DNA from: Onishia taeanensis | GTDB lineage: Bacteria > Pseudomonadota > Gammaproteobacteria > Pseudomonadales > Halomonadaceae | Reading direction: 5' to 3' | Assembly (NCBI RefSeq): GCF_900100755.1 | Contig: NZ_FNCI01000004.1 | Span: 250,089-314,088 of the forward strand | Length of the DNA stretch: 64,000 nt | Shown here: positions 44,188 to 51,951 of the stretch, piece after piece | Layout: each line of letters begins with the position of its first letter | Numbering within the stretch: position 1 is the stretch's first letter | Translations under genes and position numbers: made by a program | The notes under the pieces: model-generated | Database searches by the model: none | What the model saw: only the letters and a program-made list of their open reading frames with translations | Told to the model about the DNA's origin: nothing

Positions 44188-44586
44188 TCAGTCATTCTCA
44201 GTGAACTGAGGTAAGTCGTCAGTAATCTCGAACCACGGTGCCTTGCTGCCTACGAAAACATGGCGGTTTGCACGCACGCCTGGATCGGTATCGAGGGTGC
44301 CCAATGGAAACGCGTAGACCTTCGGATTTGCATTGAACTTCGTATAAATGCTTGACCCGCAGTTCGAACAAAAAACCTTGAACTCTCCTGGTGATGACTC
44401 GTAAGTTTTGAGCAGTTCTTGGCCTTTGACGGTCCGCCACTCATCCGCCCTTACCTTTGCACAAGTCCGGAAAGCGGCTGCATGGAGCTTGCGGCACATA
44501 GAGCAATGGCAGTTGTAGATGTCACTAAGACCGCCATGCACTTCATATTCAACGCCCCCGCAAAGGCAGCTGCCTGATAAGGTCAT
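44188..44586 (-). CDS. GFA-family zinc protein, copy 3
   Basis: The 132-residue protein has the GFA zinc sites: SGSCLCGGVEYEVHG, CHCSMCRKLHAAAFR and VFCSNCGSSIY. The strong ribosome site GGGGGAGAG precedes the ATG. It is a different branch from copies 1 and 2. Seven bases after the stop comes an R''-like ATAACAAG, then the IS3-type fragment. Confidence 0.85.
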   Translation of the reverse strand: MTLSGSCLCGGVEYEVHGGLSDIYNCHCSMCRKLHAAAFRTCAKVRADEWRTVKGQELLKTYESSPGEFKVFCSNCGSSIYTKFNANPKVYAFPLGTLDTDPGVRANRHVFVGSKAPWFEITDDLPQFTEND

Positions 44587-45171: not shown

Positions 45172-45227
45172 GGCTAACGCTTCAATCAGCCGACGCGTCA
45201 GCGGTGGGCTGCATTGACTTGTTATCG
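45172..45227 (-). repeat. attC recombination site of the graspetide-type cassette
   Basis: Minus-strand GATAACAAG (R'') and GCGTTAGCC (R') bound a 56-base imperfect palindrome. TCAATCAGCC (45182-45191) pairs with GGCTG-C-ATTGA (45207-45217), leaving a single extrahelical base as in classical attC sites. The site encodes the last residues, MQPTADASAD, and the stop of the upstream membrane protein. This tail is a known read-through signature of cassette genes. Confidence 0.75.
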
Positions 45228-45901
45228 TCTATATCAGCTGACACACCGCTAATTGCAGCTTTACTGTTGTCTGCTTTCTCTAGCGCTGCATTATTACTGA
45301 TTATATTTGAATCAGTTTCCTGGATAATTAATCCAACCAAAGAACCGATCAACGCTACGAGCAGTACAAGGAAACCGTTCCGAAGTGACTGATATGCGGC
45401 TTCATTTCTAAGATGCCGAACGACATTCATCCTCTCTTGTGCATATAGAGCTTGACTCAAGTAGGATACGCCACCATTTTTCTGTCTGAGCGCATGTTGA
45501 GTTCCATATCCGTAAACGGCCAACGTTTTTAGAGCACCTAACGCCGTAACTCCAGCAAGCAGCATATATATCGATGCGAATCCACATGCTATTGATACGA
45601 GCCCTGCATATGGGTTTGCGGGTACAAACTTCGCAAAAGCACCGCTGGCCGCTGCCAAAACGGTCAAGCTTACACTTAGCCCTAAAGTGAATTTTGACGT
45701 TTTTTCATCAATTTTCGTTGCGCGCTCATGCTCTTCTTCTATACGGTCCTTTAAGCACCCTTCGTCAAGCGCTGCATACGGTGCGGATTTCTCCGCAACC
45801 AGCGCTTCATCACTCACATCTATCATTATTTTTCTTTTGTTTCTCAAGAACGCAAATAAAGGAAGAGCTTCCTCAAAGGCCCTACACGCGTACTGTTTCA
45901 T
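45182..45901 (-). CDS. three-helix membrane protein of the graspetide-type unit
   Basis: The 239-residue protein has a charged N-terminal region with a likely coiled coil (KDRIEEEHERATKIDEKTSK, about 51-70), then membrane helices at about 71-92, 99-126 and 176-193, and a polar tail. The helix pair after a charged coil recalls small membrane effectors and some peptide-transport partners, but no family is recognised. The ATG overlaps the ATP-grasp stop as ATGA, so the two are made together. Export, immunity, or action as an effector controlled by the peptide are all open. The last ten residues are encoded by the attC site. Confidence 0.75.
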   Translation of the reverse strand: MKQYACRAFEEALPLFAFLRNKRKIMIDVSDEALVAEKSAPYAALDEGCLKDRIEEEHERATKIDEKTSKFTLGLSVSLTVLAAASGAFAKFVPANPYAGLVSIACGFASIYMLLAGVTALGALKTLAVYGYGTQHALRQKNGGVSYLSQALYAQERMNVVRHLRNEAAYQSLRNGFLVLLVALIGSLVGLIIQETDSNIISNNAALEKADNSKAAISGVSADIDDNKSMQPTADASAD

Positions 45902-46839
45902 TTGTCACCCACCAACCATGTGGCAATGTCTACATCGAACCTACGCTCATCACTAACAAGCCAGCCCCACTCGCCTGTCGGGTTGATTTCAATAAAATAA
46001 TATTTTCCATCACTCTCTATTAAGTCGATTGCCCCAAAGCTAAGGCCGAGAACTTCTAGCAACCTCAAACACTTCCTCTCTATATCATGGGGAAGTTCAA
46101 CTTCCGTATATTCAATAGATTTACGATCAACAACTCGCCAGTCTTCGTCTATCCCACGTCCAGCCGAAGTAATTTTCACTGCGGTCACTTTCCCTCCAAT
46201 CACCGTCACCCTAAGGTCAATTTTTGGTGACACGTATTCCTGTACGGTCAGGGGGACTCCAGAAATATTTTCATCAGTAAGCTCTGTCGAGCTTTCTACA
46301 GTCGAGTAGGTAAATAGGCTATCATTATTGTCCCGAAGCAATACGGTGTCCAACGACTTGATAATCACCCTATTTTCTATCTCTCGGAGCCTAGTATAGT
46401 CATTCCCTATCAATGTCTTTGGTATTTTGAACCCGATTTTCCTGGCTACTGTCAATTGATATGCTTTTGTTTCTGCTAAATACGTAGCGTTCAACGGATT
46501 CATCCATCTAGCTTCGTCGAAAATAGCGAGACTTCTTAGAAACCCCATCCACTGGCTCCGGGACAATTGTTCATCGATACTTAATAACTCCCCGGGTGTA
46601 TTCCTTAAGAAAACCGGCTGTCGATAATACACAGCCTTAAGATCTGTTGTTATACGATAGTTGGCTCCGTTCATTTTAACTTCGAGGGACGATTCATGGA
46701 CATCCATAGTTAAACGGTGATTCTCAAATTTTTCTCGGTTCAAGCGGACGTATTTCGCTTTTCGCCTCTCCAGTTCCTGAACGACGAGATCCGCTGAGAA
46801 GTCATAGATACTAGAAATTACTAGACAATCAACGTTCAT
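45898..46839 (-). CDS. graspetide-type (MvdC/MvdD-like) ATP-grasp peptide ligase
   Basis: The 313-residue protein is an ATP-grasp ligase of the class that makes omega-ester or amide links in microviridin-like RiPPs. Visible features are VYYRQPVFLRN (about 71-80), the linker RWMNPLNATYLAETKAYQL (111-129) typical of MvdC/D, Lys161 in VIIKSL, Glu201 in VQEYV, Arg210 in DLRVTVIGGKVTAVK, and the metal site GAIDLI...FIEINPTGEWGWL with Asp272, Glu284 and Asn286. All catalytic positions appear intact. The ATG at 46839 overlaps the 67-codon gene's stop as ATGA; the frame could start at 46875 but without a ribosome site. RimK or glutathione synthetase functions are less likely because of the MvdC/D-specific segments and the small partner gene. 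Confidence 0.85.
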   Translation of the reverse strand: MNVDCLVISSIYDFSADLVVQELERRKAKYVRLNREKFENHRLTMDVHESSLEVKMNGANYRITTDLKAVYYRQPVFLRNTPGELLSIDEQLSRSQWMGFLRSLAIFDEARWMNPLNATYLAETKAYQLTVARKIGFKIPKTLIGNDYTRLREIENRVIIKSLDTVLLRDNNDSLFTYSTVESSTELTDENISGVPLTVQEYVSPKIDLRVTVIGGKVTAVKITSAGRGIDEDWRVVDRKSIEYTEVELPHDIERKCLRLLEVLGLSFGAIDLIESDGKYYFIEINPTGEWGWLVSDERRFDVDIATWLVGDK

Positions 46840-47039
46840 TCCCCTTTCTGGTCCTCGCCCGTTTCCTGATCGCATTTCTTGGATACTAATGCGCCATATT
46901 TCGACCCAGGCGATACTAGAGGGGAAGATCCAGACAACCAGTAGCCTTTCTGATCGTTAAATACAGCATCTTCAGGCATCTCTGGATGTTTCGAATATGG
47001 CTTTCTCTTCGCATGCTTAAGCAATATATGACTATTCAT
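46836..47039 (-). CDS. candidate graspetide precursor peptide
   Basis: The 67-residue peptide has a basic N-terminal stretch (HAKRKPYSKHP), a central GYWLSGSSPLVSPGSKYG (about 32-49) that may be the leader segment bound by the ligase, and a C-terminal SKKCDQETGEDQKGE rich in nucleophiles (Ser, Lys, Thr) and acidic acceptors. That side-chain mix is what an ATP-grasp ligase would crosslink. It does not match the microviridin TxRxPSDxDE or plesiocin-type cores. It lies directly upstream of and overlaps the ligase gene. GGGAG lies about ten bases before the ATG. Assignment as precursor is inferred from composition and position. Confidence 0.7.
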   Translation of the reverse strand: MNSHILLKHAKRKPYSKHPEMPEDAVFNDQKGYWLSGSSPLVSPGSKYGALVSKKCDQETGEDQKGE

Positions 47040-47097
47040 TGATAGACTTCTCCCTTACTTTGATAACAGGTATTAGACAGCCCGCTCGTCTATTGAC

Positions 47098-47119
47098 TTG
47101 AACGAGCACGCGCGTTCAA
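47098..47119. promoter_or_regulatory. inverted repeat before the precursor gene
   Basis: TTGAACG and CGTTCAA form seven-base arms around eight bases, about 60 bases upstream of the precursor start. It could be an operator or part of the promoter of the three-gene unit. The flanking bases are AT-rich, with TATAAG at about 47124, a possible -10. Confidence 0.35.
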
Positions 47120-47295
47120 TATTCTTATACTTCCAAAATAACCCATTGATTTCTCAATGCATTTCCATTTTCGTGGCTATATAGCACCAATAAACGCGCC
47201 TACTGCCTTTGCCGGCAGGACCGATTTAGTTCGTAAGCCGCCATCTTAGGTACGACCATAGCCTTTTGCTTATAAAGGCACAACGCCGCCGATGA

Positions 47296-47787
47296 TTACG
47301 CCAGGCTTTCTTGTAGCGCTCGCTCCGCTTGATCGAGTTCGAACTGGCTAAACACTCGCACGCCGTGGCGTTCGAGCAATGCGGCGGTGACGCCTTGGCC
47401 GGGCACGCGCTGGCCGGTAAAGCTGCCGTCGTAGAGGGTGCGGCTACCGCAGGAGGGGCTGGCTTCGGTGAGAATAGCCACGCGGATATAATGCCGCTGA
47501 CACAGCGCCAGGGCCTGCTCGGCGCCGCTTAGGAAGGCTTGGCTGACATCTTCGCCGTCCCGGGCGATCACCCGGGCGGTACCGTCCCATACGCCAGCGC
47601 CTCCGCCGCCCTGGATCTCGGCGGGAGCGCGGGGAGTACTCAGGCCGGCCTGTACTTCGGGGCAGGCGGCCACCAGGCGCCCTTCCCGGCGCCAGCGCTC
47701 CAGGGTGGGGTCATGCAGCGTCTTGGCGCCGCCGTCGTAGCGCACCGGCTGGCCAAGCAGGCAGGCGCTGATCAGTAGTTTTTCCAT
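47296..47787 (-). CDS. DUF523 protein
   Basis: The 163-residue protein matches DUF523 (YbbK-like): SACLLGQPVRYDGG at the N-terminus, VAACPEVQAGLSTPR, AILTEASPSCGSRTLYDG and GQGVTAALLERHGVRVFS. Four conserved cysteines may bind a metal or cluster. The function is unknown. It marks the return of core-like base composition after the cassette island. Confidence 0.88.
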   Translation of the reverse strand: MEKLLISACLLGQPVRYDGGAKTLHDPTLERWRREGRLVAACPEVQAGLSTPRAPAEIQGGGGAGVWDGTARVIARDGEDVSQAFLSGAEQALALCQRHYIRVAILTEASPSCGSRTLYDGSFTGQRVPGQGVTAALLERHGVRVFSQFELDQAERALQESLA

Positions 47788-47838
47788 AAGCGCTAGCCTG
47801 CCATGCCCTACTAGTGCATGGGAATATCCTTTACCGGC

Positions 47839-48906
47839 TCAGGCCCCCTGAGCCATGGCCTGCTGGAGAAAAGCCTCGGAGCGCTGGCGCGCTGGGCGCT
47901 CGTTAAGACCAGCACAGTAAGCCTCGAACTCGGGCCGCCAGGGAATAGAGCCAAACTGCAGGCCCCAGCTCAGGTGCGCCCCCACATAGATATCCGCGGC
48001 ACTGAAGGCGTCGCCGGCGATATAGCGCTTGCCCGCAACAGCGCCTGCCAGGGTATCGGCCACCGCCTGCAGGCTGCCGCAGCCAAGCTTCATCTGCTGA
48101 CGCTCGTCCGGATAGACGCCCAGCAAGCCATTGAGCGAGACGGCGGTTTCCAGCGGTCCGGCAGCGAAGAACAGCCAGCGATAGTAGTCGCCCCGCAACG
48201 CTAATGGCGGCGCTAGCCCGGCTTGGGGGAAAGCATCGGCCAAATAGGCACAAATGGCGGCGGTCTCGGTGACCACTACGTCACCGTGGCGAATCGCTGG
48301 CACCTTACCCATCGGGTTGATGGCCAGATAGTCCGGCGCCTTCATCGAGGTGCCGTAATCCAGCACGACCGTGCGATAGGCGACGCCGAGCTCCTCGAGC
48401 ATCCAGTGGACGATGCTTCCCCGCGACAGGGGATGGGTATAGAAGACCAACTCGCCTGTCGCTGTCTCTTCCCCGCGATCACTGCCCCAGGGCCCCTCGG
48501 AGACCGGGTTGGCCGCAGCCAGACCGGCGCTGCCCTGGTCGCTCTTGAGGCCGGTCAGGCGCTGTGCCTGCTCGTCCGGCAAGGCGTCGGCCACCTTGTC
48601 ACGCAGTTGTGCGGCCGGGGCGGCCAAGGGGCCTTCCGCATCCTGGACCTTGACCAGCCCCAGCGACAGTGCATCGAGTTGCTCGTCGGTCAGCATCAGC
48701 GCTGGAAGCAGCACACCGGGCGCTAGCGTGTAGCCGGTGCCGGGTAGATGCTCGATGTCGGCACCGACCGCTTTCAGCACGGCGATATCCTGATACAGAG
48801 TGCGCAGCGAAATACCCAGCGTCTCGGCCAGGGTCGTGCCGCTCACCGGACCCTCGTGGCGGCGCATCACTAGGACAATATCCTGCAAGCGAGTCTTACG
48901 GGACAT
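47839..48906 (-). CDS. HTH regulator fused to glutathione S-transferase
   Basis: The 355-residue protein joins two domains that normally occur apart. Residues 1-62 are a YafY/DeoR-type winged helix (RLQDIVLVMRRHEGPVSGTTLAETLG, ISLRTLYQDIAVL), followed by the usual hinge (LPALMLTDEQLDALSLGL) but no WYL domain. After a linker of about 30 residues comes a GST, about 152-355, with a thioredoxin-like half (VFYTHPLSRGSIVHWMLEEL, GKVPAIRHGDVVVTETAAICAYLADAF) and a helical half. The frame is continuous with no stop or shift. It could sense an electrophile or glutathione conjugate and regulate genes; that is inference. Confidence 0.8.
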   Translation of the reverse strand: MSRKTRLQDIVLVMRRHEGPVSGTTLAETLGISLRTLYQDIAVLKAVGADIEHLPGTGYTLAPGVLLPALMLTDEQLDALSLGLVKVQDAEGPLAAPAAQLRDKVADALPDEQAQRLTGLKSDQGSAGLAAANPVSEGPWGSDRGEETATGELVFYTHPLSRGSIVHWMLEELGVAYRTVVLDYGTSMKAPDYLAINPMGKVPAIRHGDVVVTETAAICAYLADAFPQAGLAPPLALRGDYYRWLFFAAGPLETAVSLNGLLGVYPDERQQMKLGCGSLQAVADTLAGAVAGKRYIAGDAFSAADIYVGAHLSWGLQFGSIPWRPEFEAYCAGLNERPARQRSEAFLQQAMAQGA

Positions 48907-49325
48907 GTAGTTGATCTCCTCGGGTTGCTGGCACTGGCGCCATGTTCAGGGCGGGTTACTCAGAATTGGGGGGCTAAAGGCCTAAGCAAGGACTGTCTGG
49001 CAGTGCAACTCGTCAGCGCGCTACGGCCAGCAATATCAACACAGATATCGGCTCTTGAGTCATGCTGAAAGCCTCAGACATGGCGCTCTTAATGCGCTCA
49101 CCACAAAAATAGTAGCCTGCCGGGCGCGCGAACGCTTACAGACTAGCAGTAAGTGTCAAAAAACGAACGGATGCCCGTAAAAAAAAATCAACAAAGCTTG
49201 CCTGGCGGTGGACCCGGCACCAGGTCTCAGGCTGCCCCATAACTTGCCGAATCGGCGCTTGTCGAGCTAGGGCCTATAGAACTGGGGCTTATAGAACTGG
49301 GGCTTGTCGAACCAAGCACGAAACG
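48907..49325. other. 419-base gap with a 15-base tandem repeat
   Basis: No gene is supported here. The left part holds the leader of the HTH-GST gene. At 49256-49315 there are four tandem 15-base units of the type GGCTTATAGAACTGG (units 2 and 3 differ at one base, units 1 and 4 are diverged). The same GGGCTTATAGAA occurs again at the very end of the neighbouring sleB-like gene. Confidence 0.7.
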
Positions 49326-49943
49326 TCAGGGCTTATAGAAGATGAAATCGCCGACTCTGGCTGTTTCGGTGAATTCCGCCGCCCAATAGGGAGAGATGGT
49401 GCGCTGATGGAAAAACAGCGCTCCGTCAGTGCCATCTGGAAGCTGCCCATTAAGAGCCTTGCGGGCGACCTCCTTGACGATCGCATAGCGCTGCGGCTCA
49501 TTGACATCATCCCCGCGACCATCGCACCACCAGGAAAACTGGCAATAGCCCTGCTCGCCGCCCTGCTTGACCACGCCACAGATGGAGTCCGGAAAGCCTG
49601 GAGCGGCGAGCCGGTTCATCACCACATTGGCGACAGCGGCCATATCATCGGTGCCTTCGCCCTTGGCTTCCCAATAGACAGCACGCGAAAGGCAGGTGAT
49701 CGCATCATCCAGTGGTGCCGCGCCCAAGGGGTCCACCGCCAGGATGCCGGGGCGAGTGATGGCCACGTCCGGCTCGGGTCGCGAGTCACTGCCTCCCTCG
49801 ACGATGCTCTGCTCGATCAGTTCCGCCTTCTCCTGAGCGAGCGCGGACTTTTCCTCGCGGGTCAGCGACGCGCTATCCGCGGCCATCACGGGATCTGCGA
49901 GCATCAGCACTGCCAAGCAGAACGCCACAAGCGACTGGTACAT
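49326..49943 (-). CDS. SleB-type cell wall hydrolase
   Basis: The 205-residue protein has a signal peptide ending ADPVMAAD and a C-terminal Hydrolase_2/SleB domain: LSRAVYWEAKGEGTDDMAAVANVVMNRL (with the catalytic glutamate), SICGVVKQGGEQGYCQFSWWCDG and GALFFHQRTISPYWA. It should cut peptidoglycan in the periplasm. It is a single gene. The stop lies in a copy of the motif repeated in tandem just downstream. Confidence 0.87.
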   Translation of the reverse strand: MYQSLVAFCLAVLMLADPVMAADSASLTREEKSALAQEKAELIEQSIVEGGSDSRPEPDVAITRPGILAVDPLGAAPLDDAITCLSRAVYWEAKGEGTDDMAAVANVVMNRLAAPGFPDSICGVVKQGGEQGYCQFSWWCDGRGDDVNEPQRYAIVKEVARKALNGQLPDGTDGALFFHQRTISPYWAAEFTETARVGDFIFYKP

Positions 49944-50072
49944 GGTTGCACCTCCTCAAATGCAGCATCGCGATGCCATGCCGACAGGGTTTCTTGCCGA
50001 TAATACTCCAGCAGCGACATCGATGCGGACAATCCGCGCAAACGGCCAGCCGACTCAGCAGGTCTCGCCCAT

Positions 50073-50100
50073 AAAAAAACGGCGAACCGAAGTTCGCCGT
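50073..50100 (-). terminator. Rho-independent terminator after the acyl-CoA dehydrogenase
   Basis: ACGGCGAAC (50079-50087) pairs with GTTCGCCGT (50092-50100) around a CGAA loop, and on the minus strand seven T follow. It ends the acyl-CoA dehydrogenase transcript. Confidence 0.85.
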
Positions 50101-50145
50101 GGAGGAAGGTCAGAGCGCCTGACCGAGAGACCGTTGCCGTGCAGC

Positions 50146-51951
50146 TTAGATTTCGAAACCGAGACCGAAGTCCTCGGCGGAGATCGCCATCAGCGAAGCA
50201 CCACCGGCCTTGATCATTTCGGCATGGGCCCGGGTGCGCGGCAGCAGGCGCTGATAGAAGAAGCGCGCGGTATCGAGCTTGGCCCGGTAGAAGGCATCCT
50301 CATCTCCGCCAAGCGCCTGCTGAGCCTGTTTGGCGGCGCGGGCGAACAGGTAAGCAAGCGTCACGTAGCCCGAGTACATCAGGTAATCGACGCTGGCGGC
50401 CCCGACCTCTTCACGATCGTTCATCGCCTTCATGCCCACGCCCATGGTCAGCTCGCCCCATTCGGCATTGAGCTTGGCAAGAGGGGCCACGAATTCCTGA
50501 AGGGCCGGGTTATCGGCTTCTGCCTTACAGAACTGGTGAATTTCCTTGGTGAAGACCTTGAGGGTCTCGCCCTGGCTCATCAGTACCTTGCGACCCAACA
50601 GATCGAGGGCCTGAATACCGGTAGTGCCCTCGTAGAGCCGGGTGATACGCGCATCACGTACCAGCTGCTCCATGCCCCACTCCTGGATGAAGCCGTGGCC
50701 GCCGAATACCTGCACGCCCTCGTTGGTAGCCTCGAAGCCGACCTCGGTCAGGAACGCCTTGACGATCGGCGTCAAAAGGCCAAGCAAGGTCTCGGCCCGC
50801 TCGCGCTGTGCCGGGTCCTGGCCCTGCTCGACCGTGTCGACCAGCTGCGCGGTATACATCACCAGCATCCGGCCACCTTCGGCAAAGGCCTTCTGGGTCA
50901 GCAGCATACGCCGCACGTCCGGGTGCACGATGATCGGGTCAGCGGCTTTTTCCGGTGCCTGGGCGCCAGACAGTGCCCGCATCTGCAGGCGGTCACGAGC
51001 ATAGGCCAGCGAGTTCTGGAAGCTCGCTTCCATCAGCCCCAGGCCCTGGATGCCGACGCCGATGCGGGCCACGTTCATCATCGTGAACATGCAGGAGAGC
51101 CCCTTATGGGGCTTGCCTACCAGATAGCCTCGAGCGCCGTCGAAGTTCATCACGCAGGTGGCGTTGCCGTGGATACCCATCTTGTGTTCCAGCGACCCGC
51201 AGGAGACGCCGTTGCGCGCGCCAGGATTGCCGTTTTCATCTGGCAAGTACTTCGGCACCACGAACAGCGAGATGCCCTTGGAGCCTTCCGGAGCGTCAGG
51301 CAGCTTGGCGAGCACCAGATGCACGATGTTGTCGGCCAGGTCATGCTCGCCCGCCGAGATGAATATCTTGGTACCGCTGATGTCATAACCGCCATCCTCG
51401 GCCGGTACCGCACGAGTCTTGATCAGGCCCAGGTCGGTACCGCAGTGGGGCTCGGTCAGGCACATGGTGCCGGTCCAGACACCCTCGACCAGCTTGGTCA
51501 GGTAGATGGCCTTCTGCTCCTCAGAGCCATGATGACGCAAGGCATCGGCGGCGCCATGGGAAAGCCCCGGATACATGCCCCAGGCCAGGTTGGTGGCGCA
51601 GGTCATCTCGGAAAGCGCCATGCCCAGCGAGTGCGGCAGGCCCTGGCCGCCGAATTCCGGCTCAGCGGCAAGGCCCGGCCAGCCCCCCTCGACGTACTGG
51701 CGGTAGGCTTCCTTGAAGCCTCGCGGCGCCTTGACCTCGCCGCCTTCCAGCAGGCAGCCCTCGCGGTCGCCGCTCTGGTTGAGCGGCAGCAGCACCTCGC
51801 GGGAGAAGCGTGCGCCTTCTTCAAGAATGGCACCGACGACATCCGGCGTGGCGTCATCGCCGCCCGGCAGCCGTGAATAGTGGCCGGGGAAGTCCAGCAG
51901 CTCGTCCATCACGAAGCGCAAGTCGCGCAGGGGGGCCTGGTAGTCGGGCAT
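50146..51951 (-). CDS. acyl-CoA dehydrogenase
   Basis: The 601-residue flavoenzyme has the substrate/FAD motif MCLTEPHCGTDLG, the later DARITRLYEGTTGIQALDLLGRK with the catalytic glutamate, and a C-terminal extension of about 130 residues found in the long FadE-like/AcdB branch. It performs the first beta-oxidation step, probably on medium- or short-chain acyl-CoA. AGGAGTGTGCGAG precedes the ATG at 51951. Its neighbours (SDR, acyl-CoA synthetase, thiolase) are from the same pathway. Confidence 0.9.
   Translation of the reverse strand: MPDYQAPLRDLRFVMDELLDFPGHYSRLPGGDDATPDVVGAILEEGARFSREVLLPLNQSGDREGCLLEGGEVKAPRGFKEAYRQYVEGGWPGLAAEPEFGGQGLPHSLGMALSEMTCATNLAWGMYPGLSHGAADALRHHGSEEQKAIYLTKLVEGVWTGTMCLTEPHCGTDLGLIKTRAVPAEDGGYDISGTKIFISAGEHDLADNIVHLVLAKLPDAPEGSKGISLFVVPKYLPDENGNPGARNGVSCGSLEHKMGIHGNATCVMNFDGARGYLVGKPHKGLSCMFTMMNVARIGVGIQGLGLMEASFQNSLAYARDRLQMRALSGAQAPEKAADPIIVHPDVRRMLLTQKAFAEGGRMLVMYTAQLVDTVEQGQDPAQRERAETLLGLLTPIVKAFLTEVGFEATNEGVQVFGGHGFIQEWGMEQLVRDARITRLYEGTTGIQALDLLGRKVLMSQGETLKVFTKEIHQFCKAEADNPALQEFVAPLAKLNAEWGELTMGVGMKAMNDREEVGAASVDYLMYSGYVTLAYLFARAAKQAQQALGGDEDAFYRAKLDTARFFYQRLLPRTRAHAEMIKAGGASLMAISAEDFGLGFEI

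Follow-up and report, generated by a model that had tools for sequence, protein, structure and literature searches.

A winged helix fused to a glutathione S-transferase in Onishia taeanensis and its relation to adjoining yafY and GST genes

Introduction

YafY/WYL regulators such as CapW and PafBC consist of an HTH_11 winged helix and a WYL domain. The CapW-like members described in PMC9122588 are dimers whose paired winged helices bind palindromes. The gene analyzed here shares HTH_11 and the helices that follow it with these regulators. Its class A and B relatives, defined below, contain the WYL domain in the proteins scanned, whereas the fusion lacks WYL and has a glutathione S-transferase (GST) instead.

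Canonical GSTs are mainly dimers, as stated in PMC9599700. The best PDB sequence match to the fusion is SynGSTC1, the chi-class enzyme of Synechocystis (7pka, 8ai8, 8ai9, 8aib; E = 6e-17). The SR-x-S motif and the R, K, V and E contacts of SynGSTC1 are common to the fusion GST; unlike the fusion, the listed chain has no HTH. Foldseek alignments give about 30% identity of the fusion GST to 8ai9, 8aib and 7pka, the chi structures compared, which is below the >40% identity that defines a GST class in PMC9599700.

The NCBIfam model for SspA scores 18.1 bits on the fusion against a cut-off of 314. SspA and MglA have a GST-like fold and are described as regulators that act with RNA polymerase; to our knowledge they contain no HTH. 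Ure2p of yeast, a eukaryotic GST-fold regulator, is among the Foldseek matches listed (1k0d), and we know of no DNA-binding domain fused to it. No report of an HTH-GST or WYL/YafY-GST fusion was among the papers listed by searches of the open-access literature, which weighs lightly for novelty, and the main text of a 2014 CARF/WYL domain survey contains neither "glutathione" nor "GST" (PMC4012209). As far as these searches go, an HTH-GST fusion is unreported.

Results

A continuous HTH-GST reading frame

The window is a 64,000-nucleotide stretch of the O. taeanensis genome (NZ_FNCI01000004.1, forward-strand positions 250,089 to 314,088). A minus-strand reading frame in the window encodes a winged helix and a GST over 355 codons with no break. 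The features of the gene are as follows.

47839..48906, minus strand: HTH-GST fusion gene; ATG at 48906, stop ending at 47839, 355 codons plus stop
48721..48906, minus strand: winged helix, residues 1-62 (HTH_11 at 6-59), by Pfam and AlphaFold2
48790..48792, minus strand: codon 39, Gln; the residue is Arg throughout the 21 class A/B relatives and Gln or Lys throughout the 37 class C/D proteins
48535..48720, minus strand: residues 63-124 with helices at 74-119, remnant of the segment before WYL in YafY-type relatives, by comparison with relatives and AlphaFold2
48451..48534, minus strand: linker, residues 125-152, pLDDT<50 at 125-147, no internal ATG before the GST
47842..48450, minus strand: GST, residues 153-355, with predicted glutathione site S161, R162, K201, V202, P203, E214 and T215
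48916..48921, minus strand: GAGGAG, likely ribosome-binding site from reading of the sequence
48922..49325, minus strand: non-coding upstream stretch without a CTGACA-N5-TGTCAG-like palindrome

The fusion is real and conserved. All seven genus genomes searched contain it in a single open frame that matches over residues 1-353 or 1-355, and loci L006-L014, from other assemblies, have a layout identical to that in the window. A family sample of 250 genomes yielded matches at E<=1e-30 in 90; 15 of these 90 span residue 1 to 352-355, and the remaining matches are at this threshold mostly to the GST part alone, whatever lies upstream. The O. taeanensis genome has one full fusion copy and four weak GST matches. 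The initial annotation named two-gene relatives with a misassembled junction as the finding that would overturn it. Two-gene relatives do exist (8/80, one with a regulator of just 47 amino acids), which speaks for an assembly error, a frameshift or a chance open frame. The full-length frame in the genus genomes and in L006-L014, the existence of 27 shorter class D fusions and a GST with no preceding ATG make such an artifact wildly improbable. An error at the junction was rejected because the frame is intact in the seven genus genomes and in other assemblies and no ATG precedes the GST.

Pfam places HTH_11 at residues 6-59 (54.9 bits, cut-off 25) and GST_N_2, the thioredoxin-like N-domain, at 166-224 (56.2 bits, cut-off 25). 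GST_C_2 (20.2 against a cut-off of 24.9) and GST_C (19.2 against 20.7) score slightly under threshold. WYL (PF13280) is not among the 10 Pfam families at E<=1 in the window protein. A PF13280 search of the whole O. taeanensis genome at E<=0.001 gave no match; the same search was positive in 7/14 control genomes. The AlphaFold2 model of the fusion, built from a 51-row alignment, has a mean pLDDT of 85.9 and a pTM of 0.58. It consists of a winged helix at 3-61, three helices at 74-119, a segment of pLDDT<50 at 125-147 and a two-domain GST at 153-354. Although sub-threshold in Pfam, the helical GST C-domain is present by the fold of the model and by Foldseek alignment of whole GST chains. The 283-residue class D relative L021 has the same two domains (pLDDT 88.9, pTM 0.69), with residues 72-79 under 50. 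Both models are monomers, and relative domain placement in them is not taken as evidence. The 50 Foldseek matches listed for the whole model are GST-fold proteins throughout, so this search is uninformative on the HTH. These results bear out the initial annotation, made from the sequence alone and with the strand left unstated, of an unbroken fusion in which a YafY-type winged helix has lost its WYL sensor and a complete GST stands in its place after a linker near residues 120-150.

Several neighbors of the gene were annotated. A minus-strand gene at 45898-46875 encodes an ATP-grasp protein resembling ribosomal-peptide (graspetide) maturases; its best TIGR04187 score is 179.6 bits against a cut-off of 350, and RimK scores 23.7 against 21. 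The 239-residue product of 45182-45901, directly downstream, has no Pfam or NCBIfam match at E<=0.001. About 3.2 kb from the fusion, 44188-44586 (minus) encodes a GFA-family protein (PF04828), a family named for a glutathione-dependent formaldehyde-activating enzyme. Rfam at the gathering threshold found no match in 46000-51000, and a tRNA scan found none in the whole window.

Architectures among relatives

Relatives were the best 80 of 526 from a species-genome scan, so the counts are biased to near kin, and classes were set by open frame. Class A (8 of the best 80 loci) has separate yafY(WYL) regulator and GST genes and includes L067, the locus with the short regulator. Class B (14 loci) is a single frame of HTH, a 187-221-residue middle and GST; it is represented in Billgrantia, Halomonas sp. 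ML-15, Halopseudomonas and Alkalilimnicola and at four alphaproteobacterial loci. Class C (9 loci, 10 counting the window) has the window-like layout. Class D (27 loci) has HTH, 19-32 residues and GST, and 22 loci have a GST without a recognized upstream HTH. The linker of 19-32 residues in class D compares with 74-92 in class C. Classes C (9) and D (27) together make short HTH-GST fusions 36 of the 80 loci, and the same domain order is present in 37 of the 81 genes examined, window included. Among nine proteins scanned with Pfam, WYL was detected in L044 and L073 (class B) and in the L068 regulator (class A), and in none of L012 and L014 (class C) or L015 and L025 (class D).

The 81-row GST tree unites classes C and D and L034 in a 38-row group with support of 88/96, below the tool's star. 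Class C rows are scattered at several places among class D, and repeated loss of the middle segment is therefore probable. Classes A and B interchange, and the root is not fixed. A ligase-like family named by eye (F2) occurs at 21/37 C/D loci versus 0/22 A/B loci in crude gene calls over stretches of unequal length; this distribution fits descent of C and D at a single site.

Individual loci depart from these layouts. L034 4995-5663 (Halomonas sp. Y3) is HTH-less, has kept the GST and falls within class D by its GST sequence in the tree. Its GST start context, GAGGAAAC...CCCATG, is similar to that of fused kin, which suggests an in-frame HTH deletion. At L066 4800-5010, a locus related to class A, the regulator seems to be deleted, as flanking matches to L064 meet; the palindrome there has decayed to 3 mismatches.

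A palindrome and a start codon absent from the compact fusions

In 7/8 class A loci the regulator stop lies in or just past a palindrome close to CTGACA-N5-TGTCAG, and in most class A loci the palindrome is followed by a TATGCTG-like -10 and then the GST start. Counting sites with <=2 mismatches and a gap of 4-6 within 150 bases upstream, the palindrome precedes the GST in 7/8 class A loci, where the pattern was first noticed and the count is partly circular, and in 12/14 class B loci. It precedes 4/22 lone GSTs, and it lies ahead of the regulator itself in 3/22 A/B loci. An unseeded palindromic EM search of 16 sequences (the 21 A/B without L067, near-copies removed) recovered the same palindrome, at width 17 only, with a score of 182 versus <=29.6 in 6 shuffles. 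By the same count the palindrome lies upstream of 0/37 C/D genes. The best C/D likeness has 3 mismatches, in 6 genes (shuffled sequences average 3.9-4.6), and the nearest 150 bases upstream of the window fusion contain nothing closer than 4 mismatches.

The palindrome of class B is translated in frame as linker peptide, for example LLTESVSTPAY. A GST start of its own lies six codons ahead of the core in 14/14 class B genes (13 ATG, 1 GTG), and class B may make the GST alone as well as the fusion. A stop separates regulator and GST in L057, which the GST tree nests in Billgrantia. Class B was not accepted as an obligate fusion on these two grounds. None of 36 C/D genes (L028, missed by the pattern, was dropped) has an ATG within 8 codons ahead of the GST core, so classes C and D most likely make the GST only as a fusion. 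Five of the 36 have an in-frame GTG or TTG ahead of the core, the window gene a TTG. L070 and L074, both lone GSTs from alphaproteobacterial MAGs, are preceded by an exact CTGACA-N6-TGTCAG at a distance of about 80 bases from the start codon. The stretches fetched for them contained no YafY-like HTH of full length, and their regulator may be encoded elsewhere.

The O. taeanensis genome contains 7 one-mismatch palindrome sites and no exact site; about 8 are expected at equal base frequencies, and a reversed-pattern control gave 1. Six of the 7 are inside open frames of 939-2016 bases, and C29:509-525 is in none longer than 195. A mild excess of sites is possible against the reversed-pattern control; a surviving palindrome regulon is not claimed.

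No operator was found in the C/D upstream regions by EM or palindrome scan. Palindromic EM on 30/37 C/D sequences, near-copies removed, returned GGCATcATGCC with a score of 127 versus <=26.8 in 6 shuffles, a score inflated by relatedness. With no symmetry constraint the block is GGCATGATG, which is promoter-like. GGCATcATGCC is present within one mismatch in 10/27 class D and 1/10 class C genes and before the window gene at 3 mismatches; the conserved block before class D genes is absent in Onishia. GGCATcATGCC was not accepted as a new C/D operator because it is promoter-like when symmetry is not imposed and few genes are within one mismatch.

Changes and constraint in the winged helix

A quick-method HTH tree of 58 rows and 66 columns separates C/D from A/B on one branch with an SH-aLRT of 100. 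With L067 left out, all 21 A/B sequences share R at residue 39 and G at residue 53. Residue 39 is Q (34) or K (3) in all 37 C/D sequences, and their residue 53 is always one of H, S, R and N. These recognition-helix and wing changes are uniform in C/D, and HTH specificity seems to have changed together with the fusion. NiaR, an HTH_11 regulator of solved structure, has Gln aligned to the R39 position, so a Gln here is compatible with DNA binding. Mean net charge over residues 1-62 is 3.1 (A) and 2.4 (B) and falls to 0.8 (C) and 1.0 (D); over residues 31-48 it falls from 1.3-1.4 in A/B to 1.0 in C/D.

Nei-Gojobori median dN/dS ratios for HTH, middle and GST, with saturated pairs dropped and pairs not independent, were 0.126, 0.222 and 0.104 in the Onishia group (5 sequences, 10 pairs), 0.164, 0.443 and 0.204 in class C (45 pairs) and 0.267, 0.392 and 0.192 in class D (351 pairs). 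The winged helix is kept under purifying selection, in class D less tightly than the GST.

These data bear on an explanation in which the protein is a GST enzyme whose winged helix is a leftover that regulates nothing and is kept for folding, stability, oligomer shape or as the sole start. The loss of the operator with none found for C/D, the less positive HTH, the class D HTH ratio above that of the GST and the deletion of the HTH from L034 with retention of its GST are in keeping with a leftover domain. A domain of that kind fits poorly with an HTH ratio well under that of the middle in all three sets, an HTH_11 score still twice the cut-off, uniform changes at residues 39 and 53, and the like Gln of NiaR. 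A winged helix with no regulatory role is unlikely, with an appreciable chance of being correct.

Conservation of the glutathione site

S161, R162, K201, P203, E214 and D305 are invariant in 81/81 sequences and V202 is present in 80/81. The window protein matches the predicted glutathione site at S161, R162, K201, V202, P203, E214 and T215 by sequence. As given in PMC9599700, R11, K51, V52, E64 and S65 of SynGSTC1 contact glutathione; in the PDB sequence alignment these map to R162, K201, V202, E214 and T215. The same source attributes an approximately 250-fold activity loss to R11A and calls S10A "slightly less efficient" in its abstract, while its table gives approximately 13-fold in kcat/Km. 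Residue 215, the Ser/Thr glutathione anchor, is Thr in 5/10 class C sequences, the window included, whereas Ala predominates in the other classes (25/27 D, 12/14 B, 7/8 A), and affinity for glutathione may therefore vary within the family.

The site is conserved alike in lone, paired and fused forms, as plain enzyme activity predicts. This pattern is compatible with a DNA-binding regulator whose GST serves only to make the dimer or is carried as a working, self-regulated enzyme with no ligand control. The mainly dimeric state of GSTs (PMC9599700) points the same way, as do the very different linker lengths tolerated, because tight allosteric coupling is not expected across variable and partly disordered linkers. 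These observations fit ligand control equally, since the dimer state could itself respond to a ligand. A DNA-binding regulator whose GST has no part in signaling is judged improbable.

Discussion

The favored reading, a tentative one, is that the fusion is a one-component regulator-enzyme descended from an adjoining yafY(WYL)-GST pair in which the GST replaced the WYL sensor. The WYL regulator of the ancestral pair most likely bound the palindrome overlapping the GST promoter. In some lineages regulator and GST share a frame that, with no intervening stop, runs through the palindrome. In the Halomonas/Onishia lineage of salt-loving bacteria, WYL, the palindrome and the GST's own start would have been lost, probably in one deletion that joined the winged helix directly to the enzyme. 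We infer the order of pair, read-through and compact fusion (A, B, C/D), since A and B interchange on a GST tree whose root is not fixed. The fusion would bind DNA, with the GST dimer keeping two winged helices together in place of the WYL part. The glutathione pocket would pass the ligand signal and make DNA binding dependent on glutathione or a conjugate. The Ala that replaces the glutathione-anchoring Ser/Thr in most D, B and A sequences counts against this explanation.

Under a broader proposal, the fusion would be a novel kind of one-component transcription factor: a GST took over from the WYL sensor of a neighbor regulator, extant relatives would document the pair, read-through and compact steps, and a new DNA specificity would read glutathione or electrophile status. 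This proposal is possible and more doubtful. The redox- or electrophile-sensing transcription factor suggested by the initial annotation is plausible. A sensing transcription factor is favored by the conserved glutathione-site residues and purifying selection on the HTH, and disfavored by the missing palindrome, the lack of a new operator, the HTH charge loss and the HTH-less L034.

If the descent from an adjoining pair is correct, a regulator exchanged its sensor for the product of the adjoining gene, with apparent intermediates alive, and an enzyme that binds glutathione would be directly linked to DNA. Class B is noteworthy alone, as its operator and promoter double as linker coding sequence before a retained start codon.
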